This document shows positions 14,716 to 41,672 of a DNA stretch of 64,000 nucleotides, piece after piece. A model generated the notes under the pieces. The model made no database searches. It was not told the DNA's origin and saw only the letters and a program-made list of their open reading frames with translations. The DNA is taken from positions 496,001-560,000 of the forward strand of contig CAMVNQ010000001.1 of the NCBI GenBank assembly GCA_947168885.1. The letters run 5' to 3'. The stretch comes from an uncultured Clostridia bacterium (GTDB lineage: Bacteria; Bacillota; Clostridia; Oscillospirales; Ruminococcaceae). Position 1 is the first letter of the stretch. Each line of letters starts with the position of its first letter. The translations under genes were made by a program, and so were the position numbers.

Positions 14716-15906
14716 ATGGCAAATATATCAAAACGCGGTAATAGCTATCGCATCAAAGTTTTCTGCGGATATGATGTAAACGGAAAGCAGAAATTACAGA
14801 CCAAAACATGGACTCCGCCAGTGGGGCTTACTGAGCGTCAGATCAAGAAAGAACTTGACAAACAGGTGTTGCTTTTTGAGGAAGAGTGCAAGAAAGGTCA
14901 GGTCACTGCGGCTGTAAAGTTTCAGACATTTGCCGAACAGTGGTTCAACGAGTATGCGATACTCAATCTGCGTAAAACATCATTCGCAAGACAGAAGCAG
15001 CTGACGACCCGTGTTTATCCGGCAATAGGTCATCTTCGTATCGACAAGATCACGAGCCGCGACATTCAGAAGTTCGTAACTGATCTTGCGCTGAAGGGAA
15101 AGAGCCTTGTAAACGGCAAGCCGCTCTCGCGTAAGACAGTTGTTCATCACCTCAGCTTCATCTCCGATGTTTTCAGTTACGCTGTTCGCCTGGGAATGTT
15201 AAGTGACAATCCCTGCCGGCGCGTGGTAGTCCCGAAAGGGGAAGTAAAGGAAAAACAGATCTATACTCAGGAGGAGCTTGCGGTACTTCTGGATAAAATG
15301 CAGGGCGAGCCGTTGAAGTACAAGGTCTTTTTCTATCTTATCGCTTACAGCGGATTTCGCAGGAGCGAGATGTTGGGACTCGAATGGAAGGACATTGACT
15401 TCGAGCACAACATCATAAGCATTAAGCGGACATCTAACTACACAGCGGAGCGCGGTATATACACAGATACGACCAAGACCAAGCGCTCACAGCGGACACT
15501 GAAGATTGCACAGCCGATAATGGATATGCTCAGGGATTTCAAAGCTGAACAGGACGCTTACAAGGAGAATCTCGGTGATAAATGGGTAGAAACGGACAGG
15601 CTCTTCGTGAAATGGAACGGCGAGCCTATGAATAACCAGACGCCTTACGGTTGGTTAAAGGAGTTCTGCGAGAAGAATGAGCTTCCGTTCTATGGCTTGC
15701 ATTCATTCCGTCATTTTGCGGCTTCAGCTTTGATCTCAGCAGGGCTTGATGTAGTGACAGTTTCCGGCGCATTAGGCCATGCAAATTCCGAGACGACGAG
15801 CAATGTGTATTGCCACATGCTTCAGGAAGCGCGTGCAAAGGTCTCTGAAGCTGTATCGAACGCACTGGATTTCAACAGAAACAAAGATACGAAAAACAGT
15901 GCTTGA
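14716..15906 (+). CDS. Tyrosine-type integrase (intact)
   Basis: 396 residues. The N-terminal arm-binding domain (MANISKRGNSYRIKVFCGYD) is followed by a SAM-like core-binding domain (FQTFAEQWFNEYA...) and the catalytic domain: Arg in YSGFRRSEMLGLEWKDID, HSFRHFAASALISAG (HxxR box), LGHANSETTSNVYCHM with the nucleophilic Tyr. All catalytic residues are visible. The start at 14716 is chosen for AGGAGG at 14700; the ATG at 14683 is less likely. It lies 105 bases upstream of the att core at 16011. Closely related to the split integrase at 28774/44656, as shown by matching segments throughout. It is the integrase of the older, mostly deleted element, but could act on neighbouring att sites. Confidence 0.92.
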   Translation: MANISKRGNSYRIKVFCGYDVNGKQKLQTKTWTPPVGLTERQIKKELDKQVLLFEEECKKGQVTAAVKFQTFAEQWFNEYAILNLRKTSFARQKQLTTRVYPAIGHLRIDKITSRDIQKFVTDLALKGKSLVNGKPLSRKTVVHHLSFISDVFSYAVRLGMLSDNPCRRVVVPKGEVKEKQIYTQEELAVLLDKMQGEPLKYKVFFYLIAYSGFRRSEMLGLEWKDIDFEHNIISIKRTSNYTAERGIYTDTTKTKRSQRTLKIAQPIMDMLRDFKAEQDAYKENLGDKWVETDRLFVKWNGEPMNNQTPYGWLKEFCEKNELPFYGLHSFRHFAASALISAGLDVVTVSGALGHANSETTSNVYCHMLQEARAKVSEAVSNALDFNRNKDTKNSA

Positions 15907-28728: not shown

Positions 28729-28773
28729 ATGTGCAGCTGAATTCAAAGCCGAATGGCAGAAAGGAAATTCAGC

Positions 28774-29772
28774 ATGGCATCATATGAAAAAAGAGGCAAC
28801 TCTTACAGAATAAAATCGTCCTGCGGATATAACTCCGAGGGCAAACAGGTTTTTCAGAGGATTACCTGGACACCAGAGCCCGGTATGACTCCAAGGCAGA
28901 TCGAGAAGGAACTCAATCGCCAGTGTGTACTGTTCGACGAGGAATGCAAGAAAGGTTTTATTTCGTCACCGGTCAAATTCAAGGATATGGCGGAGCAGTG
29001 GTTTGAGGAATACGCAAATCTCAATCTTCGCAGCACCACTCTTACTCGTGAGCGCCAGCTCACCGCGAGAACTTATAAAGCGATTGGTCACATCAGGATC
29101 GACAAGCTGAACGCGAGAATAATCCAGCGATTCATCAATAGTCTTACCGAGGACGGTACCAATCAGCACACGGGCAAAGGACTGTCGAAGAAGTCGATGA
29201 CGCATTATCTCTCGTTCATCTCGAAAGTGCTTGATTACGCGATCAAAATGGATATGCTCGGAGCCAACCCCTGCCGGAAAGTCACAGTACCGAGAGGCAG
29301 CGTCAAGGAGCGTCAGGTGTACAACATCGAGGAAACCGAACGCTTCTTCCAGATCATGCAGGAAGCTCCGCTCAAGTATCGCGTGTTCTTCACCCTCGTG
29401 ACCTACACCGGTATGCGCCGCGGGGAAATGCTGGGGCTGGAATGGAAAGATATCAACTTCGACACGGGCGTTATCCACATTCAGCGCACCTCTAACTACA
29501 CAAAGGCGAGAGGCATCTACACCGACGAGACCAAGACCAAAGGCTCAAACCGTTATGTCAAAGTCCCGCGTGATATGCTCGATATGCTTGACGGATTCCG
29601 CAAAGCTCAGCAGATCGAGAGCGAGAATGTAGGTGACAAGTGGGTAGATACCGACCGGCTGTTCGTTAAGTGGGACGGTCGTCCGATGAATCCGCAAACT
29701 CCATACGGCTGGTTACAGGATTTTTGTGAGGAACACAATTTCCCGTTCCACGGGGTTCATCAATTCCGACAT
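28774..29772 (+). pseudogene. Tyrosine integrase, 5' part (interrupted by element C)
   Basis: 333 codons of a tyrosine integrase from MASYEKRGNSYRIKSSCGY to GVHQFRH, the HxxR box. Arm-binding, core-binding and the Arg box (YTGMRRGEMLGLEWKDIN) are intact. The remaining reading to 29895 (INNMKTSLLKIRLK...) belongs to the inserted element. The missing C-terminus, including the nucleophilic Tyr, is found 14.9 kb away at 44656-44895, and both joins fall at the same FRH codons. The gene is inactive in this state. Confidence 0.88.
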
Positions 29773-29775
29773 ATC

Positions 29776-29788
29776 AACAATATGAAAA
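29776..29788. repeat. Left inverted terminal repeat of element C
   Basis: AACAATATGAAAA, exact inverse of 44645-44657. TCTCCCCACAA lies 35 bases further in, and that motif recurs around the recombinase promoter (42875, 42970 inverse) and at 44832. Confidence 0.8.
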
Positions 29789-29833
29789 CATCTTTATTAA
29801 AAATCCGATTAAAATCACATATCTCCCCACAAG

Positions 29834-29867
29834 AAAACCGCTGTACCAAAGCAAGTACAGCGGTTTT
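29834..29867. terminator. Strong terminator at left end of element C
   Basis: AAAACCGCTGTAC, 8-base loop, GTACAGCGGTTTT. The A and T tracts make it bidirectional; it could insulate the element from host transcription. Confidence 0.85.
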
Positions 29868-29908
29868 GCTATGCGACATATTTGCGACGTATTAAAGCCT
29901 ACCTAATG

Positions 29909-30220
29909 TTAATCGCTCACAAGATGATACTTAGTTAGAAAATCGGGATCTGTTTTCATGATAGAGATCATGCGACGAGCGGGGCCGATGGGACGATTCG
30001 TGCCTGCTTCCCATGCCTCTACCGTTTTTGCAGATACTCCGAGTGCGGCGGCAAATATCTGCTGGGTAAGTCCTGCGGAACATCTGATGCTTTTTATCTC
30101 ATTAGCAGATAAATCCGGCAACGGTTCAACTGAAAGCTTTGTAGTCCTTGCAGTACCCTTTCCTTCTTCATAGTCGAGAGCTTCCTGCAATCCGGTCATA
30201 ATACTGTCAAAAACATTCAT
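29909..30220 (-). CDS. XRE-family antitoxin (HigA-like)
   Basis: 103 residues. The C-terminal helix-turn-helix is LSANEIKSIRCSAGLTQQIFAAALGVSAKTVEAWEAGTNRPIGPARRMISIM. The N-terminal 45 residues probably contact the toxin. The start at 30220 is chosen for AAGGGGG upstream and the overlap by which the toxin stop lies just before. With the upstream RelE-like gene it forms a toxin-antitoxin pair in the toxin-first order typical of higBA. Confidence 0.82.
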   Translation of the reverse strand: MNVFDSIMTGLQEALDYEEGKGTARTTKLSVEPLPDLSANEIKSIRCSAGLTQQIFAAALGVSAKTVEAWEAGTNRPIGPARRMISIMKTDPDFLTKYHLVSD

Positions 30221-30224
30221 AACA

Positions 30225-30575
30225 TTATCCCCCTTTCTTATCAGACAAAGACTTTTCGAGCCTCTCAACCAACTGTTTAATGGCATTGCGTTCTTCTTTT
30301 GTAAGATTATCCTTCTCGTTTTTAGGATATGCAGTCAAGAGATAAATCTTTTCGTAAAAAGCAAAGTCAATATAGATAACTCTTGTACTGCCGCTTTTCC
30401 CTTGATGCTCAAATGCGAACCGCATCTTTCTGACTCCACCGGTTCCTTGCATCACACTGCCAATTCTCGGATCGGCAAGCAGTTCCGCTTGAAGTCTCTT
30501 CAGGTCATTGTCGGTCAGATCAAGCTGTTTCCACTTTTTATCGAACTCTGGGAGCATTATAAATTCTCTTGTCAC
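30225..30575 (-). CDS. RelE/HigB-like toxin
   Basis: 116 residues. Features of the RelE fold are an N-terminal helix pair (FDKKWKQLDLTDNDLKRLQAELLADP), GSVMQGTGGVRKMRFAFEHQGKSGSTRVIYIDFAFYEKIYLLTAYPKNEKDNLTKEERNAIKQLVE. Members cleave mRNA at the ribosome. The gene ends 4 bases before the antitoxin ATG, so the two are translated together. A role in keeping element C in the population is likely. Confidence 0.85.
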   Translation of the reverse strand: MTREFIMLPEFDKKWKQLDLTDNDLKRLQAELLADPRIGSVMQGTGGVRKMRFAFEHQGKSGSTRVIYIDFAFYEKIYLLTAYPKNEKDNLTKEERNAIKQLVERLEKSLSDKKGG

Positions 30576-30744: not shown

Positions 30745-30773
30745 TTGCATTTTTCTTCATTTTATGGTATTAT
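30745..30773 (+). promoter_or_regulatory. Promoter of the candidate small RNA
   Basis: TTGCAT, 17-base spacer, TATTAT; predicted start at or next to 30780, where the folded RNA begins. Confidence 0.6.
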
Positions 30774-30779
30774 ATTAAT

Positions 30780-30956
30780 GCGACATAAAATTCATATTTT
30801 TATCTGTAACGCCGTACATTATACTTCGGTAAATGTACAGGCTCAACGGCGTATTGGATAAAAATATGTTGGTGAATTTTGTGTCGCAGCAAAAAATTGA
30901 GCTTTGTATCGTTTACAGGGTACGCAGCTCACTTGTAGTTGCGTACTTTTGCTTTT
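30780..30956 (+). ncRNA. Candidate structured small RNA
   Basis: GCGACATAAAATTCA (30780) pairs with TGAATTTTGTGTCGC (30873-30887). Inside, TATTTTTATC pairs with GATAAAAATA and ACGCCGT with ACGGCGT, and a GTACATT/AATGTAC hairpin caps it: one continuous rod of 108 bases. A terminator GTACGCA-loop-TGCGTAC-TTTTGCTTTT follows at 30920-30956. It has its own promoter and no reading frame. It does not resemble an RNA family I know. The rest of 30957-31136 shows no start codon. Confidence 0.6.
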
Positions 30957-31136: not shown

Positions 31137-31256
31137 ATGACTGGTGGTTGTTGTTTGATATACGTTATAGGTGGTATCTTTATTTATTTTGGAATAATTA
31201 ATTTGGTTTTAGTAAAACAATCGCATATAAGGTATGATAAAGATGAAATGGCGTAA
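31137..31256 (+). CDS. Small membrane peptide upstream of the Hxs cluster
   Basis: 39 residues from ATG 31137 (GGTAGG upstream): MTGGCCLIYVIGGIFIYFG and a hydrophobic helix with a charged tail. The frame is open further upstream to 31038 and would read NAKRIIAKYTGIPTTRSERQRKIGR before it, a segment seen in short clostridial proteins (TGIPTT...RQRKIG), but no ordinary start codon is present there. Either a truncated or N-terminally decayed gene, or one using a rare start. It overlaps the next gene by 23 bases, suggesting coupling. Confidence 0.45.
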   Translation: MTGGCCLIYVIGGIFIYFGIINLVLVKQSHIRYDKDEMA

Positions 31257-32670
31257 ATACTTGGCTCCTATAATAGCCTGCATAATGGTTTTCACATCTT
31301 TATATATTGATACAAATCCATTTGTAATATCTGTTTATGCTGCTTCGGAAAAGCTTTCAGCACCAACCGGATTTAAAGCTGATGTAACCGCTGACACGAT
31401 AGTTTTGCGTTGGAACAAGGTAAGTGGAGCCGATGCATACCGTGTATATAAATATAATCCATCAAATAACAAATATGAACCATATAAGGATGTTGTAAAC
31501 AATCGCTGCCGAGTACACGGTCTTTCAGTCAATACAAAATACAAGTTTAAAGTTGCGGCGCTTGTTAAGAATGAAGATAAGTTTTTAGTTCAGAAGAAGG
31601 CGAAGGTTAGCGTTAAAACAGCCAAACAGACTGTAAACAAAGATGAAATCACAGCCGAATCAGTAGCTGATCAAATTGAACTCGAAAATGCTGACGGAAG
31701 CCTTCGTATCCATTTCATTGATGTGGGACAAGGCGACAGCACATTTATTGAACTTCCTAATGGTCAGACGATGCTTATTGATGCCGGAGAGATAGATCAA
31801 GGTGATAAAGTGGTAGCCTATATTTATGAACATGGCTATGATACAATAAACTATGTCGTCGCGACTCATGCTCATAGTGACCACATCGGCGGATTACCGG
31901 ATGTTTTGGATAACTTCAATGTTGATGCAGTTATTATGACTTCTGACAAAAGTGACACACAGATCTTTACACATTTATTTACCGCAATATATCTCAACGG
32001 TGCGGATCTTCGATATGTTCTTGCCGGAGATGTTCTGATAAAAGAGGATCAGCTGCTTGTGGAAGTAGTTGCTCCTAAAGATCTTTTCGATAATGATCAC
32101 AATAATAATTCTGTAGTCATAAAACTTACTTATGGTAATAATAAGTTTCTTTTTGCGGGAGATGCAGAAAAAGCAGAAGAAGCTGCGATCAGGACAAATA
32201 TAAAATGTGATCTGCTTAAAGTAGGTCATCACGGCGGCAAGACATCTTCAAGTTATAACTTTTTGAAAAAGGTTAATCCGAAATTTGCGATTATAAGTTG
32301 CGGGCTTGATAATAAATACGGTCATCCCACAAATGCTGTATTGAATCGCCTTAAGAAGAGAAAAATAAAGCTGTTTCGTACAGATTTGCAGGGAACAATC
32401 ATTGTCGAGTCTGACGGAAATACAATATCAATTGATAAAACCCCATTTGATTATACCCAGAATACAACAACGCCAAGTGCCGTATCGGACAACAATGACC
32501 CATCTCAGGAAATAACCTATGTTCTAAATGTTAAAACTCAAAGGATACATTATCCTTGGTGTCCGTCGGTCGAGGAGACCAAAAGCAAGAACAAGAAATA
32601 TACAACTGATTATAATGCTGCGATAGAAGAAGGATTTAAACCATGCGGTCGATGCAACCCAAAGGGCTGA
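31234..32670 (+). CDS. Secreted metallo-beta-lactamase-fold protein with Fn3 and Cys-rich tail
   Basis: 478 residues. Signal peptide 1-38, a fibronectin type III domain about 40-130 (APTGFKADVTADTIVLRWNKVSGADAYRVYKYN), then a ComEC-type metallo-beta-lactamase domain about 150-410: IHFIDVGQGDSTFIELP, THAHSDHIGGLP (metal site near 210), FAGDAEKAEEA and LKVGHHGGKTSS. The tail (IHYPWCPSVEE...GFKPCGRCNPKG) resembles the small metal-binding domain found at the ends of many extracellular nucleases and competence proteins. The likely activity is extracellular phosphodiesterase or nuclease; substrate unknown. First large gene of the Hxs-type cluster. Confidence 0.8.
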   Translation: MIKMKWRKYLAPIIACIMVFTSLYIDTNPFVISVYAASEKLSAPTGFKADVTADTIVLRWNKVSGADAYRVYKYNPSNNKYEPYKDVVNNRCRVHGLSVNTKYKFKVAALVKNEDKFLVQKKAKVSVKTAKQTVNKDEITAESVADQIELENADGSLRIHFIDVGQGDSTFIELPNGQTMLIDAGEIDQGDKVVAYIYEHGYDTINYVVATHAHSDHIGGLPDVLDNFNVDAVIMTSDKSDTQIFTHLFTAIYLNGADLRYVLAGDVLIKEDQLLVEVVAPKDLFDNDHNNNSVVIKLTYGNNKFLFAGDAEKAEEAAIRTNIKCDLLKVGHHGGKTSSSYNFLKKVNPKFAIISCGLDNKYGHPTNAVLNRLKKRKIKLFRTDLQGTIIVESDGNTISIDKTPFDYTQNTTTPSAVSDNNDPSQEITYVLNVKTQRIHYPWCPSVEETKSKNKKYTTDYNAAIEEGFKPCGRCNPKG

Positions 32671-32709
32671 TGCTTGGCATTGATTATCACAGCACATTCG
32701 GGAGGATGT

Positions 32710-33090
32710 ATGAAAAACTATATTGGGAAATATGATACAAATATATATTCAAAAGAAGTGGTTATGAAAGCAGCATATGCGTTTATAAAAGACTACTATA
32801 TACATCTTTCAAGCGATGATGACAGCATAATAGTTTCGTTTACTGCGAAAGATGATCGGGAGCTTTCGGATAATATAGGCGCTGAATTCGAAAACGAACT
32901 GCTTTCTCAATCTGTGAGGTATCATGTTTATAAGCAGACACATGTTATAAGAGAAATACTTATGGCACGAGCTATGGCTTCAACTATGGTATATGAAAAT
33001 GATCCGATAGAGTTGTTTGACAACGATTCCGACGATGATCTTGATAATATTTTGGAGGACTGGTTCAAACATGAAGGAATTTCAAACTGA
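32710..33090 (+). CDS. hxsD: HxsD-type protein of the His-Xaa-Ser system
   Basis: 126 residues. The pattern IYSKEVVMKAAYAFIKDYYIHLSSDDDSIIVSFTAKDD... EFENELLSQSVRYHVYKQTHVIREILMARAMASTMV fits HxsD, the small partner in His-Xaa-Ser systems (YSxEAVxKAAY..., EFxNELLxQxxR..., IRxxIxAxAxxxT). HxsD may serve as a peptide-recognition or chaperone subunit for the radical-SAM enzymes; its function is not established. The start at 32710 is chosen for GGAGG; 40 bases after the preceding stop. The C-terminal 25 residues are acidic. Overlaps the next gene by 20 bases. Confidence 0.75.
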   Translation: MKNYIGKYDTNIYSKEVVMKAAYAFIKDYYIHLSSDDDSIIVSFTAKDDRELSDNIGAEFENELLSQSVRYHVYKQTHVIREILMARAMASTMVYENDPIELFDNDSDDDLDNILEDWFKHEGISN

Positions 33091-33283
33091 GATATATGAT
33101 AAAAGTTTTTATGGACGGGATATAATTGATGCGGCTATAATCGCATATAAACCGTTTGCTACCATCAAACTGAATGATGACGGTTCATGTTGGAAATGTA
33201 CCTTCGATGTAAAGGAATATCCCGAACAAATGATAATTAATGAGTTTGGAAATTATCTTATAGAATTGTCACAGGCAAAATAG
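33071..33283 (+). CDS. Second, shorter HxsD-like protein
   Basis: 70 residues: IYDKSFYGRDIIDAAIIAYKPFATIKLNDDGSCWKCTFDVKEYPEQMIINEFGNYLIEL. It has the same order as HxsD (start of strand, helix with AxxAY, strands with KxxxxDG, EFxNxLI) but lacks the C-terminal IRxxIxxA helix. It is a likely paralogue or half-domain that could pair with HxsD or with the A24 protein. ATG overlaps the end of hxsD. It is not a family member I can name with confidence. Confidence 0.5.
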   Translation: MKEFQTEIYDKSFYGRDIIDAAIIAYKPFATIKLNDDGSCWKCTFDVKEYPEQMIINEFGNYLIELSQAK

Positions 33284-33287
33284 ATCT

Positions 33288-34358
33288 ATGATATATTTAG
33301 AAGCGCTGATGCTTACGATTGCTTTTTCAGTCCTGATCGTGTCATCAGTTAACGATATAAAAAAAGGCATAATACCGAATAAAATACTTCTTGCAGGGTT
33401 GCTCTCAGGAATTGCTTTTGATGTAGTCTATTACTTTTTCTTTTACCAAGAAGGCTTCGCGAATTTCATAATTAATCTTGCGGTTGTAACTTTTCTTTCT
33501 CTACTATTCTATTTCTTGAATATATGGGCGGCGGGCGACAGTAAAATGCTTATAACTGTTTTTGCTGTTATACCTTCGAGGTTATATTCGCCTATGGCTC
33601 TTAATGTATTGCCATGCTTTGTCCTGATAATGTGTGTATTTATTTCTGCATTTGTTTATGTTATTTCGGATACAGTAATAAAGTCAATACAAGAAAAACG
33701 AAAATTACAGATAAAACGGAAAAAACGAATTACCGGTAAACAGATATTATATATAATCGTTTCCTATTTTTTCATTTTGCTTACAATGCTGTTGGTCAAT
33801 ATGCTAGTTAGCATAATACTATCGATTTGGGACGGCGGACAAGCATACATTACATTGATGATAGATTTTGTAATAGCCCTGATATTGATAGAAGTGAGAA
33901 AACATATATCCTTCAAAGCGACACTGGTAATGATCGGAGTAATGACTATAGTGCTACTAATAGCTTTATTTACTGGCATATACACGATCTCGACCGTATC
34001 ATTTGATTTTAAACCGCTGATTGTTGTTATCATAACAATCATTTTAAGGCTTGCGTCAGAAAAATACAATTATTCCGAGATACCTGTCAGCAAACTTAAA
34101 CCTAACATGATACTATCCGGAGTATCTGTAATGCAGATGAATATGTCGGGCAACATAGAGAATTTGCCTACTGCAATAACCGAAGACAGAAACGCAAGAT
34201 TGTCACAGGAACAAATTGATGCAGTAATAAAGTGGTCGGAAACCGACACTGGCACATCTTCGATCATGATAGTAAAGAAAATCCCGTTTGCGATTTTTAT
34301 TCTGATAGGAACAGTATTGTTTCTTGGAACGGAGGCAGCTTTTATATGGTTCGCTTAA
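33288..34358 (+). CDS. A24 prepilin-peptidase-like membrane protease with C-terminal extension
   Basis: 356 residues. The N-terminal 120 residues match A24 aspartic peptidases: VNDIKKGIIPN with Asp23 and AAGDSKMLI with Asp84, the two catalytic positions, between membrane helices. More helices follow, then a soluble domain (LKPNMILSGVSVMQMN... TEDRNARLSQEQIDAVIKW) and a final membrane helix. A24 enzymes cut prepilin-type leaders on the cytoplasmic side. No pilin genes are present, so its substrate here is probably a cluster product such as the His-repeat protein, whose N-terminal region has a membrane helix (inference). It overlaps hxsC by 13 bases, tying it to the radical-SAM genes. Confidence 0.78.
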   Translation: MIYLEALMLTIAFSVLIVSSVNDIKKGIIPNKILLAGLLSGIAFDVVYYFFFYQEGFANFIINLAVVTFLSLLFYFLNIWAAGDSKMLITVFAVIPSRLYSPMALNVLPCFVLIMCVFISAFVYVISDTVIKSIQEKRKLQIKRKKRITGKQILYIIVSYFFILLTMLLVNMLVSIILSIWDGGQAYITLMIDFVIALILIEVRKHISFKATLVMIGVMTIVLLIALFTGIYTISTVSFDFKPLIVVIITIILRLASEKYNYSEIPVSKLKPNMILSGVSVMQMNMSGNIENLPTAITEDRNARLSQEQIDAVIKWSETDTGTSSIMIVKKIPFAIFILIGTVLFLGTEAAFIWFA

Positions 34359-35446
34359 TAAACAACTATAATCTCGGACATAGATTAGCTATAGTTGAAA
34401 GAAACAGCACATCAGAATTTAGTGACAGTTTTGAACATATTTTTATCACTTCCGACAGTATATCATTCTCTTCCGATGGCAGTAAAATGTCTATAGATGA
34501 AAAAACTTACGAATATCTGAATGGACTGGATACCGGCGACATCGTAAGTATTAATCAAAAAGGTCTTTGCTATATTTTACACAGCGGATATAAGGATGAC
34601 ACCGTATTCTTTATGGGCGGCAACTGCAATTCCAATTGTGTTATGTGTCCTGCCGGAGACGCCGAGAGAAAAAATGACTTCTCGGATCAATGGAAGGAAA
34701 CGTTGAAGCTTATAGAAATGCTACCGGAACGGATAAATTATTATGTCGTTACCGGCGGTGAACCGACCTTGAATAAAGATGCTTTCCTAAAAGTTATTGG
34801 TGATATATCAAATAAATTATATGATTCGCCCGGTATCGTTCTTACAAACGGACGTTCGTTTTCTTCAAAAGAATTAGCCGATAGTTTCAAAAGGGTTGCT
34901 CCAAACGACATTATGGTTGCTATCCCCATACATGGCAGTACAGAAACACTTCATGATGCTGTTACAAGGGCGGAGGGCAGTTTCAGACAATCCCTGAAAG
35001 GTATAAGAAACCTGATAGAGCGTAACATTCCGGTAGAAATACGCATAGTTGTCACAAAGATGAATTGCGATGATCTGCTGAATATAGCAAAACTCATTGT
35101 AAAGTATTTTCCCTCTGCCTATCGTGTGCATTTCATCAGTCTTGAAGTCAGAGGTAATTGCATCAAAAACAAAGACCTTGTCTATATTGACCCTGAACAA
35201 TCCTTTCAGAAAAGCAGATTGGCAATCGATCACTTGCTGCAAAACGGGATAAATGTTGGGCTATATAATTATCCGTTATGTAATGTTGACAGAAAATACT
35301 GGTTTCTGTACAAAAAGAGCATTGCGGGAGAAAAGGCAATTTATGATGAAAAATGTGCCGATTGCACTATGAAAGACAGCTGCGGTGGTTTATTTGTAAG
35401 TACATTAAAAACTGTACACCCTGCTGTATATCCGATAAATAATTGA
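34346..35446 (+). CDS. hxsC: Radical-SAM maturase HxsC
   Basis: 366 residues. The [4Fe-4S] motif is CX3CX2C in FMGGNCNSNCVMCPAGD (about residue 90), the CNxxCxMC form of HxsC. The N-terminal 85 residues include GDIVSINQKGLCYIL, matching the HxsC lead-in. A TGGEPTL motif follows (YYVVTGGEPTLNKDAF), then a barrel and a C-terminal Cys cluster CADCTMKDSCGG that may hold an auxiliary cluster. In Hxs systems HxsB and HxsC are paired and are thought to modify a His-x-Ser repeat protein. The start at 34346 is chosen for GGAGG and family length; the upstream frame to 34232 is overlap with the A24 gene. Confidence 0.82.
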   Translation: MVRLINNYNLGHRLAIVERNSTSEFSDSFEHIFITSDSISFSSDGSKMSIDEKTYEYLNGLDTGDIVSINQKGLCYILHSGYKDDTVFFMGGNCNSNCVMCPAGDAERKNDFSDQWKETLKLIEMLPERINYYVVTGGEPTLNKDAFLKVIGDISNKLYDSPGIVLTNGRSFSSKELADSFKRVAPNDIMVAIPIHGSTETLHDAVTRAEGSFRQSLKGIRNLIERNIPVEIRIVVTKMNCDDLLNIAKLIVKYFPSAYRVHFISLEVRGNCIKNKDLVYIDPEQSFQKSRLAIDHLLQNGINVGLYNYPLCNVDRKYWFLYKKSIAGEKAIYDEKCADCTMKDSCGGLFVSTLKTVHPAVYPINN

Positions 35447-35456
35447 GAGGTTAATA

Positions 35457-36851
35457 ATGCTGAATCATTTTAATTTCCGCAAATTTAAAGATAAAGTATT
35501 GATAACAAATGATTTTGGCAGTTATGCATTTCTTGATAACAATACTTTTAAGAAATTTGTAACTAACAAGCTTGATAAAACCTCTGATTGCTATGAAGCT
35601 CTAAAACATGAAAACTTTATAATTGAAAAGCCGAATGAGCTTTTTGGCGATGAGATGAAGGAAAAGTTACGTGGTATAAAAAGCTATGCACTTAGCGGGA
35701 CAAGCCTACATATATTTGCGATAACGAATGCCTGTAATGTAAACTGCGTATATTGTCAGGCTAAGGATAAATCATCATCGCTTACAGGATTTATGAGTGT
35801 CGAAACTGCCAGAAAAGCTGTGGAAGTAGCGCTTCAAGCACCCGGAGACAGTTTGACATTTGAAATACAGGGCGGAGAACCACTACTGAATTTTAATGTT
35901 GTTAAAGAAATTATTGAACATACGAATGAAGTGAAAGGCAATAAAGAGATTCTCTTTACCCTTGTATCTAATTTAGTAGCCCTCGATGACGAGAAATTAA
36001 AATACCTTGTGGATCATAAAGTCTCGGTATGCACGTCTTTGGACGGTCCGAAACAAGTTCAGGAGAACAATCGAAGATGCAAAGTATCCGGCAGTACATT
36101 TGATTATGCAACTAAAGGTGTAAAGAAACTCCAAGAAAACGGGATATGCGGCGGAGCTATACAGACAACAACACGGTATTCTCTGCAATATCCGGAGGAG
36201 ATCGTCAATACATATTTCGAGATGGGTATGCACGGGATGTTCATCAGAGCACTGACCCCGCTGGGATTTGCAAAAGCCGATTGGGAAACGATAGGCTATT
36301 CACCGCAGGAGTTTCTTGAGTTTTACAGAAGGGCATTTGACAGGATACTTGAAATAAACAGAAACGGGCATTGTTTTCCAGAACTTCATGCATCGTACTT
36401 TCTTAGGAAGATGCTTCACGGTACAGCGGTCAACTACATGGAGTTACGTTCTCCGTGCGGAGCAGGGATGGGACAGCTCAGTTACTATTATAACGGCGAT
36501 GTCTATACCTGTGATGAAGGAAGAATGATTTCCGAAGCCGGTATTGACGCTTTTAAACTCGGTAATGTTTATGAAAACAGCTACGACGAGCTTATGGCAA
36601 ATCCGGTGTGCAAAACACTCGCTATTGCGTCTGTAGTAGAGAGCCTCCCCGGTTGCAGCGATTGTGTTTATAATCCTTACTGCGGAGTTTGCCCTGTTGT
36701 AAACTACGCTCACGAGAAGGATATTTTCCCTCGTTCGCCCAAAAATTTCAGATGCGAAGTTTATTCCGGCATGATGAATATTTACTTCGATAAGTTATTG
36801 AACGGCGACGAACAGACATTAAAGATATTCGAATCATGGATAAATGATTAA
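35457..36851 (+). CDS. hxsB: Radical-SAM/SPASM maturase HxsB
   Basis: 464 residues. An N-terminal 85-residue region precedes LHIFAITNACNVNCVYCQA (CX3CX2C), EIQGGEPLLN, CTSLDGPKQVQENNRR and a SPASM domain with seven or more cysteines (SPCGAGMGQLSYYYNGDVYTCDEG... PGCSDCVYNPYCGVCPVVNY ... FRC). The CNxxCxYCQ form, the SLDGP motif and tandem placement after hxsC support HxsB. SPASM proteins use two auxiliary iron-sulfur clusters to make carbon-carbon or carbon-heteroatom links in peptides. Ten bases after the hxsC stop; the next gene, the His-repeat protein, follows after 21 bases. Confidence 0.85.
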   Translation: MLNHFNFRKFKDKVLITNDFGSYAFLDNNTFKKFVTNKLDKTSDCYEALKHENFIIEKPNELFGDEMKEKLRGIKSYALSGTSLHIFAITNACNVNCVYCQAKDKSSSLTGFMSVETARKAVEVALQAPGDSLTFEIQGGEPLLNFNVVKEIIEHTNEVKGNKEILFTLVSNLVALDDEKLKYLVDHKVSVCTSLDGPKQVQENNRRCKVSGSTFDYATKGVKKLQENGICGGAIQTTTRYSLQYPEEIVNTYFEMGMHGMFIRALTPLGFAKADWETIGYSPQEFLEFYRRAFDRILEINRNGHCFPELHASYFLRKMLHGTAVNYMELRSPCGAGMGQLSYYYNGDVYTCDEGRMISEAGIDAFKLGNVYENSYDELMANPVCKTLAIASVVESLPGCSDCVYNPYCGVCPVVNYAHEKDIFPRSPKNFRCEVYSGMMNIYFDKLLNGDEQTLKIFESWIND

Positions 36852-36872
36852 GACATAACAGGAGGATAAAAA

Positions 36873-37361
36873 ATGAATGAATTAAAATTACCGCACATCA
36901 AAGAAAGCATTTCCAATTTCTTATATGACGAGGAAGGAAATATTTCAAGGAGCAAAATATTGGCTGTAGGCTCTATGATGATCGTAATGGGAGTTCTTTT
37001 AGGCACGGAGGCATCTGCCGCACACAGAAGTCACTCGTCACATCGTACACATAGTTCGCACAGAAGTGGTAGCCATTCTTCTCATTCAACTCACTCAACA
37101 CATTCTAATCACGGTTCACATACCACGCACTCTAATCACTCGACACATTCAACCCATAATACCCATTCTACACACTCGACACACAGCAATGCTACAACTG
37201 TAACTCATTCTAATTCCACAAATATTACAGCTCCGAAAACATTCCAATCGCCCTATAATATTGCCGGTAAAGAAAGCGCGCTCTTGGGTACTCACGCTGC
37301 TACCACATCATCCGGCGGAACAAAAACAGTAAACAATCTTGATGTTACAAAGATAAAGTGA
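36873..37361 (+). CDS. His-Xaa-Ser/Thr repeat precursor (HxsA-like)
   Basis: 162 residues. Residues 1-26 form a charged cytoplasmic segment, about 27-49 a membrane helix ending in Ala-Ser-Ala-Ala, then 18 consecutive His-x-[Ser/Thr/Asn] triplets with one two-residue slip (HRSHSSHRTHSS... HSTHSTHSN), then a Thr/Asn/Ser-rich tail (about 60 residues). Only Ser, Thr, Asn, Arg or Gly occur between the His. This matches the repeat protein of His-Xaa-Ser systems, the assumed substrate of HxsB and HxsC. The mature product probably lies outside the membrane. Many of the repeats use Thr and Asn, unlike the Ser-dominant family name. AGGAGG lies 6 bases upstream of the ATG. A metal-binding, sugar-linked or cross-linked surface polymer is possible; no function is known. 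Confidence 0.8.
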   Translation: MNELKLPHIKESISNFLYDEEGNISRSKILAVGSMMIVMGVLLGTEASAAHRSHSSHRTHSSHRSGSHSSHSTHSTHSNHGSHTTHSNHSTHSTHNTHSTHSTHSNATTVTHSNSTNITAPKTFQSPYNIAGKESALLGTHAATTSSGGTKTVNNLDVTKIK

Positions 37362-37380
37362 AGAGGAGAGGTGATATATA

Positions 37381-38145
37381 ATGAAAAAGAAGGTACTTTC
37401 ATCAATAGGTATAATAGCTTCCATTTGCATGATTTTTGGGCTTTCCTTATTATTCGTGCAAAGTATTCCGACATCTGCCGATAATTATGATGTCGTTGAT
37501 TTTGAACTTGATGATTTTTTATCTGCAAGCGAAATAGATATTTCCGACACTTATGAAACAGTCGATCTTGAATCGGATATAACCGATTATTCTGCAAGCG
37601 GTAAAACGATTGAGTATATTAATAACTATGGTGATTTCAAATTTAATGCAAACGATAAGGGAAAAGTTGCAAAATATACAAGCGATTCGTTAAAAGAAGG
37701 GTATCTGATAAAAGGTTCCGCAACTTTTGAAAAATACGATATAAAATTCAGTGGGTCATTCTATGTCAATACATCAAATCGTGTTATGCTTTATAAAGGT
37801 GATATGACGTTGCCTAACAGCGACAAGTATAGCGGTACATTTGACATTGAAAACAAAGGAAACAGTTACAAGAAAGGCACATACACGTGGAAAAACGGCG
37901 AGTCATATAAAGGAAAATTCTCAACATACAGCACCAAAAATTCTTCTGGTACTAAAGTGTTGAAGTCGTGCCTTGACAGTGGCAGCGATAAAAGCTATTA
38001 TTACTTCGAAAGTGAGAAAGAATATCTGTACATCTCATTTGCAAAAGGAGTTCCTACCGGAACCGGTACATATTATAAATCCGGCAAAAAATATACTGTG
38101 AAATATGATGCCAACGGAAAATGTATATCCACAAAAGAAGCATAA
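37381..38145 (+). CDS. Secreted MORN-like repeat protein
   Basis: 254 residues. A signal peptide (MKKKVLSSIGIIASICMIFGLSLLFVQ) is followed by an acidic linker (about 40-75) and beta-hairpin repeats of the MORN type (KYSGTFDIENKGNSYKKGTYTWKNGESYKGKF, then GVPTGTGTYYKSGKKYTV). MORN-like repeats bind surfaces, lipids or other proteins. It follows the His-repeat gene by 19 bases with an AGAGGAGAGG site and is translated just before a lipoprotein, so it probably acts outside the cell with the modified peptide. Exact role unknown. Confidence 0.65.
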   Translation: MKKKVLSSIGIIASICMIFGLSLLFVQSIPTSADNYDVVDFELDDFLSASEIDISDTYETVDLESDITDYSASGKTIEYINNYGDFKFNANDKGKVAKYTSDSLKEGYLIKGSATFEKYDIKFSGSFYVNTSNRVMLYKGDMTLPNSDKYSGTFDIENKGNSYKKGTYTWKNGESYKGKFSTYSTKNSSGTKVLKSCLDSGSDKSYYYFESEKEYLYISFAKGVPTGTGTYYKSGKKYTVKYDANGKCISTKEA

Positions 38146-38879
38146 TCTATAGGATCATATTATGCTTTTGGACAATATGTGTTATAAGTATCGGTTCATG
38201 TAAATGGACTTCTGACACTAAAGAAATATCATCTCTATATGATAATGTTCTGTCGTGTGTTCTCAACGGAGATACGGAATTAGCGCTTAAAGAACCGGCA
38301 ACAATAGATGAGATTACGAATATATACACACATATTTATGAGTATGAACCTGCGGTAAACGGGCTGTCCAAGTCAATTTCTTACAAAAAGCTGAATGATG
38401 ACAGTGATTTGATTGTCTTGATCGGGTTTGTTTATACTTTGTCCAAAGATGAAATAATAGAACGCGATACAGCAACTAAAGGAATAATTGATGAAATATC
38501 TACCACCATTCCTTTCGATACTGATATAAACTCAAAGCTGCAAATGATAGTTGAAGCAATTACAGACGGACTGATTTATGATGATGAATCTCCCGAATGC
38601 AATACATCTTATGCTACACTGTGTAAAAAATCAGCTAATTGTCAAGGTATTTCCAAAGCCTTTGTTATGGTTTGCCAACAGATGAATATAGATGCCGGAT
38701 ATTGCATTGGCAAACTGAATGGGATCAAGCATATTTGGAATTATGTGAAAGTTGATAATTACAGTATTCAGATCGATTTGACAAGTAATGATAATAAAGA
38801 TTATATTCTAAACGAGCCATATTCTGATGGTACAAGATCATTAGACGGATTCATTGAGATGGATTGTTTCGATTTTTAA
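38121..38879 (+). CDS. Transglutaminase-like cysteine protease lipoprotein
   Basis: 252 residues. A signal sequence with lipobox ISIGSC (about residue 27) anchors it to the membrane. The C-terminal domain has the transglutaminase-core triad: Cys173 in SANCQGISKAFVMVCQQMNIDAGYC, His in KHIWNYVKVDNYSIQIDLT and the following Asp. Members act as peptidases or cross-linking enzymes. It overlaps the MORN gene by 25 bases, so it is coupled. Being the last gene of the Hxs-type operon, it might trim or cross-link the secreted His-repeat product (inference). The 3' end overlaps that of the opposite-strand gene by 29 bases. Confidence 0.7.
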   Translation: MYIHKRSIIYRIILCFWTICVISIGSCKWTSDTKEISSLYDNVLSCVLNGDTELALKEPATIDEITNIYTHIYEYEPAVNGLSKSISYKKLNDDSDLIVLIGFVYTLSKDEIIERDTATKGIIDEISTTIPFDTDINSKLQMIVEAITDGLIYDDESPECNTSYATLCKKSANCQGISKAFVMVCQQMNIDAGYCIGKLNGIKHIWNYVKVDNYSIQIDLTSNDNKDYILNEPYSDGTRSLDGFIEMDCFDF

Positions 38880-40335
38880 AGCTCCCCTCCAACCATTCCT
38901 CAAACTCGTCAAGCGTGATCTCCCCGTTCTGACACATATCGCGTTTTTCACAAGCCTGATAATTCCAGAGCCGGAATTTATCGGGCTTTATTGTTCCGGC
39001 GGTCTTACGGGCATAGTATCGCTTATAGTACTTTCTGAAAACGCCGACAGCCTTATCGTCACGGAGCTTTTCTTCATATTTCTTCTGCGCCGCGATCTGC
39101 TGACAAGTATGGGTTTCACCCTCGCGGATGCGGTCACAGTATTCGGCGTTATAATTCCCCTTAACAATGAAATAGCGTCCGCAATGCTTGCATCTGTGCA
39201 GCTTGATGTCATATTCAAGCATTTTCGTGAATTCCAGCTCCAACATATCGTGGATCGTGCTGCAACTATACGACGCAGACATAAAAAGAGGAACGCTGTG
39301 ATGCACTCCAATCTTTCCGGCTTCAAGGTCATACTCTTTTTCGAGAGGACTTTTTTCTTTTGTCGGAACATGGCTTTTCAATCTTTTCAGAATAACGTCC
39401 ATAGGCAGGCGGCTACACTCAAGCGCGGTCATATCCATTCGTGATGTTATCCGGAAAGTCTCCTGACGATAGAATGTTCTGGGGACTCCGAATTTTTGCG
39501 CATATATTGCAAAACGTTCGTGCGCCCGAAGCCCCGATAATTCATCGGGATAGAACGCATCATCAAAAACGAATTTTATACGATTACGCATTTCCCGTTT
39601 CAGCTCGTTGAGATAGAAAATGTAATATTTCAAACTGGTCTCGGATATTTCTTCGAGCTCCGGCGGGAAAATCGACGAATAAAGTGACCGATGCATATAC
39701 GGATCAAGCGCAACAATCGAACGCCGCATGTATTCACATTCAAGATCGCGTAATTCATCTTTGTTGCGTGCCTTCGGCGTGGTAATATCTTTACTGATGT
39801 TGTTATATTCCAATGTTTCCAAAGCGGAATCCAATAGATCTTCCGGATCGCAGGCAAAGAATGAAAAGCAATAATCAAGTAATCCCTCGCCTATTGGAAA
39901 TGTAATTAGAAGCCCGGCAAAGGGATTGAACAAAGTCATGTCATCTTCGCTGTATTGTGCGTTAAGATGAAAAACATCGTGATAAACATAATCGCCGTTA
40001 TACTTTTTTGTTATATCTTCATGACTGACTATCGGGAAAAACCGGTAGCCATTTTCATTTTCCGGCGTTGCTATACGCTGCCCGTCATCATCAAATAACT
40101 GAGGATAGAATATCGAGTCGAGAAGTCTCTGCTCGGGAGTATCGAAGTTTTTCAGGCGCTTGTACTCGTTACCCTCTTCAACAAATTCATAATTATCATC
40201 AACATCTATGGTCATGGTTCGCGCCGCAGGATCAATATGCACCTGATTATTGTATCCGTTGAAGGATATGGTTTTCTTATTTCTGCGAATGAAGTCATAC
40301 TTTTCGTCCGGCTGCAATTCGTAAGTTTCGCTCAT
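38851..40335 (-). CDS. DUF6076-like protein with zinc-ribbon motif
   Basis: 494 residues from the ATG at 40335; the frame upstream to 40443 has no family match. The C-terminal third carries a CxxC...C..C zinc-binding motif (LHRCKHCGRYFIVKGNYNAEYCDRI...HTCQQIAAQKKYEEKLRDD) and a helical tail, the arrangement seen in DUF6076 proteins of clostridial mobile elements. The N-terminal part is alpha/beta with no motif recognised. It opposes the Hxs genes and has its own promoter. A role in element regulation or defence is possible but unproven. Confidence 0.6.
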   Translation of the reverse strand: MSETYELQPDEKYDFIRRNKKTISFNGYNNQVHIDPAARTMTIDVDDNYEFVEEGNEYKRLKNFDTPEQRLLDSIFYPQLFDDDGQRIATPENENGYRFFPIVSHEDITKKYNGDYVYHDVFHLNAQYSEDDMTLFNPFAGLLITFPIGEGLLDYCFSFFACDPEDLLDSALETLEYNNISKDITTPKARNKDELRDLECEYMRRSIVALDPYMHRSLYSSIFPPELEEISETSLKYYIFYLNELKREMRNRIKFVFDDAFYPDELSGLRAHERFAIYAQKFGVPRTFYRQETFRITSRMDMTALECSRLPMDVILKRLKSHVPTKEKSPLEKEYDLEAGKIGVHHSVPLFMSASYSCSTIHDMLELEFTKMLEYDIKLHRCKHCGRYFIVKGNYNAEYCDRIREGETHTCQQIAAQKKYEEKLRDDKAVGVFRKYYKRYYARKTAGTIKPDKFRLWNYQACEKRDMCQNGEITLDEFEEWLEGSFKNRNNPSQ

Positions 40336-40414
40336 TAAACCTCTGAACCCCTTTTTGAAAATTAGACAATATGGATTTTGCCAAAATCCCGTAATCAATA
40401 TCGTTCTAATAAAT

Positions 40415-40443
40415 ATGATAGCAAACTCTTGATTTTTTGTCAA
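40415..40443 (-). promoter_or_regulatory. Promoter of the DUF6076-like gene
   Basis: On the minus strand TTGACA, 17-base spacer, TATCAT. Confidence 0.7.
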
Positions 40444-40523: not shown

Positions 40524-41672
40524 ATTGCTATCTATCATTTCAGTGTCAAGATCGTATCCCGAAGCGCAGGCGCGAGCTGTGTCGCAAGAGCCGCGTACAT
40601 CGCCGGGGAGAAGATCAGAAACGAACGCGACGGAGTCATCCATGACTACCGCCGTAAACACGAGGTCGTTCACAAAGAAATTCTGCTGCCCGCGGGAGCG
40701 CCCGAACAATTCCGCAAACGTTCTGTTCTCTGGAACGCCGCAGAGCAGAAGGAAACCCGCAAAAACAGTCAGACTGCCCGGAGTATTGACGCAGCACTTC
40801 CGAGGGAAATCTCACGAACGGAGCAGATCGACCTCGTGCGGCAATTCTGTATGCAGAATTTCACGTCATGCGGGATGTGCGTCGATTTTGCGATTCACGA
40901 CAAGAATGATGGAAATCCCCATGTGCATATTTTACTGCCGACCCGTCGCGTAGATAAGAACGGGTTTACGGTAAAAGACCGTTCGTGGAACGACAGGGCT
41001 ATGTTGGAGCAATGGCGAAAATCTTGGGCAGAGTGGTGTAACCACAAGCTGTACTTTGTTTCCGATGAGCATATTGATCATCGCAGCTACGAGGCTCAGG
41101 GAATTGACAAAATCCCGACTGTACACCTCGGAGCCGGTGCTTGTGCTATCGAGAAAAAAGGAAAAAAGACAGATCGCGGACTGCTGAACCTGCAGATCGA
41201 GATTGAAAACGCGAACACCTCTATCGCTGCCATGAAACAGGAAATGGACGAAAATAAGTATTTCATCCAGCAAAACTTGGACTATCTTTTTCAGGAAGAG
41301 CTGGGCTGCTCTATGTCTGAGGCTTATGAATTGCGGGAAAAGGATGATTATATTTCATTTCTGAAAAGTGAAATGGAACGTAGAAATCATAATGCAATAA
41401 AGGCAAAGGAAGATGAGGAGTATTCAAAGTTGTTCTTTGCGAGGTGGGATCACGAAATGCTCGATCGGATAATGTACGAAATGAAAACCGCTTCGGATTA
41501 TGTTCACGAACACGGACAATATCCGTCCGGTTGGAACAACATTATGGAAACCTATCGTCTTTTGAGGCAACAGGAAGAACAGCAGAAACAGCAATCCGCC
41601 CCAAAGCCCACGCCGCCTCAAAATGATACGCCCGAAAAATCTACGTTCAAGCCTAAGTCGAGAAGTATCTGA
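40524..41672 (+). CDS. MobQ-type relaxase (MobA/MobL), ATT start
   Basis: 382 residues. In the open frame, family homology begins AIYHFSVKIVSRSAGASCVARAAYIAGEKI immediately after an ATT codon at 40524, where relatives have ATG. A TGA lies six bases upstream in this frame and no ATG, GTG or TTG is available before residue 105, so ATT must be used or the gene is silenced. GGAGG lies 8 bases upstream of the ATT. The relaxase motifs FAIHDKNDGNPHVHILLPTRRVDKNGF (three-His) and a HIDHRSYEAQG end of domain are intact. A C-terminal coiled coil follows. oriT is just downstream at 41792. Confidence 0.85.
   Translation: MAIYHFSVKIVSRSAGASCVARAAYIAGEKIRNERDGVIHDYRRKHEVVHKEILLPAGAPEQFRKRSVLWNAAEQKETRKNSQTARSIDAALPREISRTEQIDLVRQFCMQNFTSCGMCVDFAIHDKNDGNPHVHILLPTRRVDKNGFTVKDRSWNDRAMLEQWRKSWAEWCNHKLYFVSDEHIDHRSYEAQGIDKIPTVHLGAGACAIEKKGKKTDRGLLNLQIEIENANTSIAAMKQEMDENKYFIQQNLDYLFQEELGCSMSEAYELREKDDYISFLKSEMERRNHNAIKAKEDEEYSKLFFARWDHEMLDRIMYEMKTASDYVHEHGQYPSGWNNIMETYRLLRQQEEQQKQQSAPKPTPPQNDTPEKSTFKPKSRSI

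Follow-up and report, generated by a model that had tools for sequence, protein, structure and literature searches.

Systems of the His-Xaa-Ser (Hxs) type were reportedly first described in an in silico study by Haft and Basu, and to our knowledge no product or function has been assigned to them. Here we describe an HxsA3-type system in an uncultured Clostridia bacterium, found in a window of 64,000 nucleotides (nt) that spans positions 496,001 to 560,000 of contig CAMVNQ010000001.1 (GenBank assembly GCA_947168885.1); all coordinates refer to this window. Nine co-directional genes on the forward strand occupy positions 31234-38879 with almost no intergenic space, just as laid out in an earlier note on this DNA, and eight of the nine encoded proteins score above NCBIfam or Pfam cut-offs. 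The same note's identification of the core as hxs genes is borne out by profile searches, in which HxsD, HxsC, HxsB and HxsA3 all exceed curated cut-offs. We see about an even chance that systems of this type include an A24-family protease and a MORN-type protein as fixed components, and that HxsB and HxsC, two radical S-adenosylmethionine (SAM) enzymes, likely modify the triplets of the repeat protein HxsA3 before its leader undergoes a predicted cut by the A24 protease.

The hxs core and its constant partners

The radical SAM/SPASM enzyme HxsB (35457-36851) matches TIGR03978 with 508.1 bits against a cut-off of 370, reaches only 61.7 bits with the YhhB model, and is the single protein above the HxsB cut-off in the window's genome. 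Its nearest solved relatives by sequence are the radical SAM protein 5wgg and anaerobic sulfatase-maturating enzymes. HxsC (34346-35446, with a likely start placed by eye from the ribosome-binding site) scores 277.7 bits against TIGR03977 (cut-off 267.9). The CxxxCxxC motif is kept in 14 of 14 sequences of either enzyme, together with seven further cysteines in HxsB and four C-terminal cysteines in HxsC. HxsD (32710-33090, in an open reading frame (ORF) from 32674, start by eye from the ribosome-binding site) reaches 88.7 bits with TIGR03976 (cut-off 50). Its predicted structure, a beta-alpha-beta-beta-alpha arrangement with a predicted local distance difference test score (pLDDT) of 81, proved generic when HxsD was considered as a candidate PqqD-like winged-helix recognition domain. 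The repeat protein (36873-37361) belongs to HxsA3 (NF038309, 105.6 bits, cut-off 65), as do all six of the further repeat proteins tested from the set, and a short HxsD-like protein (33071-33283, ORF from 33017, likely start again by eye from the ribosome-binding site) belongs to NF038315 (60.1 bits, cut-off 41). Since both are already named NCBI families, the system is not of a new kind; we know of no function for either family.

A membrane aspartyl protease of the A24 family (FlaK/prepilin-peptidase type) is encoded at 33288-34358 and passes the Pfam gathering score for Peptidase_A24 (PF01478, 36.7 bits, cut-off 26.5). Its predicted catalytic residues, D23 and D84, are invariant in all 64 aligned sequences, namely the window protein and 63 of 120 listed homologues. 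Among solved chains, its sequence profile matched FlaK (3s0x) alone, with an E value of 5.6e-4 where values as high as 1 were admitted, and both aspartates were matched in the alignment; the predicted structure is of good quality, with a pLDDT of 87 and a predicted template modelling score of 0.84. With the FlaK preflagellin peptidase and the type IV prepilin peptidases the protein shares two aligned aspartates, the second in a G-D-x-K setting, but it differs from them in its place within an hxs operon and in an extra C-terminal part with invariant residues as far as position 341.

The gene after hxsA3 (37381-38145) encodes a secreted, degenerate MORN-type protein. It stays below the Pfam MORN cut-off (PF02493, 13.4 against 22.5 bits) yet a profile built on its counterparts from 13 other loci matches it (E 4.8e-8, 29.7 bits); among the 14 relatives' MORN proteins, PF02493 was above cut-off in all 10 tested. 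The MORN protein of locus L051 carries a PG_binding_1 domain, the only one of the ten tested to do so, and a peptidoglycan-binding domain is annotated in the repeat proteins of two other systems, L045 and L048. On these grounds the MORN protein may act as a wall anchor.

Further loci were gathered through HxsB, not through the A24 protein or other extra genes, from a genome collection, phage records and viral contigs. HxsB is rare: it exceeds its cut-off in 3 of 394 genomes of the order, 4 of 391 of the class and 2 of 398 of the phylum, in overlapping samples that each include the window's own genome. Elsewhere it does so in 5 of 145 genomes of one family, 3 of 189 of another order, and 1 of 38 and 1 of 87 of two families, each count including the genome at the centre of the sample. 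A single HxsB query gave no match in the viral contigs, and an HxsB alignment gave one, L051. In total, 15 systems with an HxsA3 leader were found, the window and 14 further loci, with L010 and L018 counted once as one species. The named relatives are Mitsuokella multacida and uncultured Clostridia, and HxsB of the 13 relatives aligned is 43-51% identical to that of the window.

In each of these 15 systems the A24 gene sits between hxsD and hxsC, the MORN gene adjoins hxsA3, and the gaps between core genes are no longer than 21 nt. The systems fall into two main gene orders, and the window has MORN and hxsA3 swapped. This recurrence indicates that the A24 and MORN genes are core parts. Neither gene was seen in any of 15 comparison loci that have HxsB and lack an HxsA3 leader. 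At E 1e-10, a profile built from 14 of the hxs A24 proteins picked out 2 genomes among 316 of the class, and both of these also have HxsB. The A24 protein itself found no match among plasmids at E 1e-3, and the A24 alignment none among viral contigs. Four irregular loci were kept in the comparison set, and HxsB and HxsC both exceed 100 bits in 11 of its 15 members: HxsB is split in two on a 3 kb contig in L032 and interrupted by an in-frame stop in L039, and HxsC is below 100 bits in L026 and L040. The filter used recovered no repeat protein from L042.

The system can also be set beside the HxsA and HxsA2 systems (TIGR03976-TIGR03979, NF038296), with which it shares HxsB, HxsC, usually HxsD, and a His-x-Ser repeat protein. 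Those systems differ, however, in a longer distance between the N-terminal signal and the repeats, and in the HxsA/HxsA2 loci examined the A24 protein, the MORN protein and the E-E-[GA]-[NS]-I leader motif considered below are all absent.

Leader, predicted cleavage sites and repeats of HxsA3

HxsA3 of the window consists of a predicted leader (residues 1-22), a hydrophobic helix at about residues 29-45 and, after it, the repeats. All 15 HxsA3 leaders carry the motif [DE]-E-[DE]-[GA]-[NS]-I directly before a single hydrophobic stretch. The residue at position -1 is Gly in 14 of them and Ala in one (L051, found by a leader profile); the rule for prepilin peptidases is likewise Gly or Ala at -1. 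A search of the comparison loci with the Gly-or-Ala pattern found the motif in none of the 10 repeat proteins there, even though matches to HxsB, HxsC and HxsD accompany every one of these proteins. Because the motif tracks the A24 protein and not HxsB, HxsC and HxsD, it is read as the predicted A24 site. In the window, this places a predicted cut between G22 and N23, which would follow triplet modification by HxsB and HxsC.

A second candidate site lies between the helix and the repeats, where a signal-peptidase-I-like -3/-1 pattern was found by script in 13 of 14 proteins and by eye in the remaining one, L033; the predicted site in the window is A49/A50. A conserved site of this type had no place in the model of the earlier note.

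Where 18 His-x-Ser/Thr triplets had been claimed for the window protein, a recount gives 15, or 19 if Asn is allowed, with Thr in the third place of 9 of 20. Across 14 proteins, Ser, Thr or Asn stands at +2 from 192 of 200 His residues, compared with 383 of 1140 other residues. Since Asn is accepted in the third place, an oxidation confined to Ser would not fit; the spacing from i to i+2, the tolerance of Asn and the SPASM architecture would together favour a link from His to a beta carbon. HaaB, YhhB and similar characterised triceptide (three-residue cyclophane) enzymes link an aromatic residue i to i+2, His included, and HaaB and YhhB make such links with Ala and Arg (PMC11002830). These enzymes and HxsB are all radical SAM proteins, but the spacing alone fits, and HxsB forms a family of its own.

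Accessory genes and flanking DNA

The three other genes that the earlier note had singled out beside the A24 and MORN genes recur less regularly. The HxsD-like gene is present in 7 of the 15 HxsA3 systems, a count that leaves out three matches falling on the hxsD gene itself. The first gene of the cluster (31234-32670), identified by Pfam, NCBIfam and motif, encodes a secreted protein that combines Fn3, ComEC-like metallo-beta-lactamase (MBL) and Ada-type zinc domains (fn3, 35.4 bits, cut-off 25; Lactamase_B, 72.6 and 22.7; Ada_Zn_binding, 26.9 and 23), with an HxHxDH motif at residues 212-217. It is an optional neighbour found in 2 of 15 systems, the window and L051, whose homologue is 36% identical over 310 amino acids (aa); the 5' room searched was below 1.6 kb in L019, L022 and L033. 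The case for the MBL protein as a core part is weak. The last gene (38121-38879) encodes a transglutaminase-like lipoprotein (Transglut_core, PF01841, 29.6 bits, cut-off 23), in which C174, H204 and D219 were picked by eye. It occurs in 1 of 15 systems, that of the window, and therefore looks local; a general crosslinking role for it is rejected on this count. A defence function was also considered and rejected: among the nine proteins, PADLOC assigned MBL-family matches to the MBL protein and viperin radical SAM matches to HxsB and HxsC, and nothing to the rest.

G+C content is about 34-41% in the cluster itself; the left flank has 47-48%, a toxin-antitoxin pair in front of the cluster 43.5%, and the DNA to the right 42-44%. 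Relaxase, integrase and serine recombinase genes flank it. The earlier note had placed the cluster inside a mobilisable serine-recombinase element; the mobility genes are there, but no ends of an enclosing element were identified. A tyrosine integrase (28753-29895) apparently lacks its normal C terminus, as judged by eye, and a MobA/MobL match (40836-41672) begins inside the domain (profile positions 89-224), so that both flanking mobile units look decayed.

The toxin-antitoxin pair, a RelE-type toxin with a helix-turn-helix antitoxin (29909-30575), stands directly before the cluster; in Adhaeribacter, a HigB toxin is annotated near hxs. A long imperfect palindrome follows at 30779-30888, upstream of the cluster. 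It has no Rfam match, and a search of the whole window gave none at gathering scores. Folded as RNA (30770-30905), it reaches -44 kcal/mol (z -6.0, none of 200 shuffles as good), and it may be either a small repeat element or a structure of terminator type. On the opposite strand, a DUF6076 protein gene (38851-40443) overlaps the 3' end of the transglutaminase-like gene.

Two further observations concern other loci. L010 (12800-20987) and L024 (9519-17000), from distant Firmicutes, have a common gene set after hxsA3 that comprises a protein of 255-259 aa, a DUF5050-type protein (L023 and L033 have relatives of it too), a Ser/Thr kinase, other shared genes and a ClpB-type AAA protein. This set is possibly a phosphorylation-controlled export or surface module. 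In L026, a peptide with an NHLP leader and YHSND repeats (14917-15255), about 5 kb from the HxsB-like gene, is perhaps a different kind of His-repeat peptide.

Proposed maturation and its alternatives

The reading that we prefer, in which HxsB and HxsC modify HxsA3 and the A24 protease then removes its leader, builds on features that were computed directly: the gene identities, the conserved radical SAM, SPASM and A24 residues, the constant gene company, and the confinement of the motif to the A24-bearing systems of the sample. Maturation could proceed as follows. The first 22 or so residues of HxsA3 would serve as a recognition leader for HxsB, HxsC and HxsD, and every triplet would be modified by HxsB and HxsC while still in the cytosol, the most likely product being a link between His and the beta carbon two residues on (i+2). 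The chain would then insert by its single helix with the repeats outside. Two cuts would release the repeat, one made by the A24 protease at G22/N23 in the part that faces the cytosol and one made by signal peptidase I at A49/A50 beyond the membrane, and the MORN protein would keep the product at the cell wall. Of the maturation model in the earlier note, leader cutting by the A24 protein is thereby retained, on the strength of its genomic context, while the transglutaminase step lacks support and is dropped from the general model.

Taken further, the system may be a surface-protein factory in which the A24 protein is a dedicated leader peptidase, up to 19 triplets, stapled by HxsB and HxsC, form a rigid rod that the MORN protein attaches to the wall; this we put forward as a tentative proposal, rather less than probable. 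With similar reserve we assign the A24 protein of such a factory to the prepilin class of GxGD aspartyl membrane proteases; its cut and that of signal peptidase I would flank one helix.

Several points count against the preferred reading. Six of the 15 systems are close in sequence, with HxsB 59-88% identical, and so do not make up 15 independent cases; in addition, Gram-negative plasmids make up 10 of the 15 comparison loci, and lineage could therefore mimic the link between A24 and HxsA3. A Foldseek search with the A24 model returned no PDB match at E 0.001 or below, FlaK coming first with E 1.2, and the hxs A24 proteins of genomes G002 and G907 (Mitsuokella) and of L051 fall below the Pfam A24 cut-off. 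Additional A24 genes occur in 8 of the 10 HxsA3 genomes, and five of these 8 also show N_methyl matches; the remaining two, G002 and G672, speak for the reading instead, as the hxs A24 protein is the only one of its family there and neither an N_methyl match nor a T2SSE ATPase above cut-off accompanies it. Type IV pilin substrates have a hydrophobic start right after the cut and Glu at +5. Position +5 after the predicted A24 site is never Glu in the 14 HxsA3 leaders (N-I-S-R-S-K in the window); Lys stands at +6 in all 14 and Arg at +4 in 13, which is unlike pilins. Furthermore, the presence of a signal peptidase I site means that the repeat could in principle be released without the A24 cut, and Thr as third residue would be an unusual partner for a link from His to a beta carbon.

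The strongest alternative takes up the signal peptidase site. Here, the E-E-G-N-I motif would be a docking element for HxsB, HxsC and HxsD, signal peptidase I alone would free the repeat, and the A24 protein would act on another substrate or clear leader debris from the membrane. Such a division of labour agrees with the conservation of the signal-peptidase-I-like site and with the HxsA/HxsA2-type loci, which have no A24 gene nearby and must release their product in another way. We find it rather doubtful, as the motif is missing from the 10 comparison repeat proteins despite the HxsB, HxsC and HxsD matches beside them and tracks the A24 gene, and only Gly or Ala is found at -1 in the 15 leaders.

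Family membership of the A24 protein, with FlaK as its best solved match, and the single hydrophobic helix adjoining the site would also suit a pilin-like protein, from which the A24 protease removes the leader while the helix stays in the membrane, uncut by signal peptidase, and the modified subunits make up a fibre or a brush anchored there. This is distinctly unlikely, given that no pilus ATPase (T2SSE) exceeds its cut-off in 4 of the 10 genomes (G002, G672, G1221 and G1290) and that the signal-peptidase-I-like pattern was recognised in each of the 14 leaders inspected, in one case by eye; with the missing Glu at +5, both facts disfavour a pilus subunit. Finally, that the A24 and MORN genes are passengers outside maturation, travelling with hxs on mobile DNA, is suggested by the mobilisation and recombinase genes around the window's cluster and a related serine recombinase near the L024 system, but is highly improbable with both genes in 15 of 15 systems, in more than one gene order, and at only 43-51% HxsB identity to the window in 13 relatives.

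EpeX is a radical-SAM-modified peptide that offers a comparison for modification followed by leader removal. In a review on leader proteases, it is described as cut by EpeP, an intramembrane M50 metalloprotease (PMC10885120). EpeX and the hxs system thus both pair a modified peptide with a membrane protease, predicted in the case of hxs, but EpeP belongs to M50 and the hxs enzyme to the A24 aspartyl proteases. A term search of the main text of the same review found none of prepilin, A24, aspartic or aspartyl (PMC10885120). Literature searches, in which most subscription papers were not covered, yielded under the Hxs names no description of a unit of HxsA3, A24 and MORN, no paper pairing prepilin peptidase with radical SAM or ribosomally synthesized and post-translationally modified peptide (RiPP) terms, and none pairing MORN with the Hxs names.

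What the present analysis adds to the picture of the HxsA3 family is the partnership with the A24 and MORN proteins. The constant A24 partner and the precise predicted cut site offer a handle, through the mature N terminus, on where the product is located and which part of it is modified. If leader removal by the A24 protein holds true, aspartyl GxGD membrane proteases would extend the set of tools with which bacteria release proteins modified by radical SAM enzymes, and the HxsA3 systems may represent a new route to modified surface proteins.

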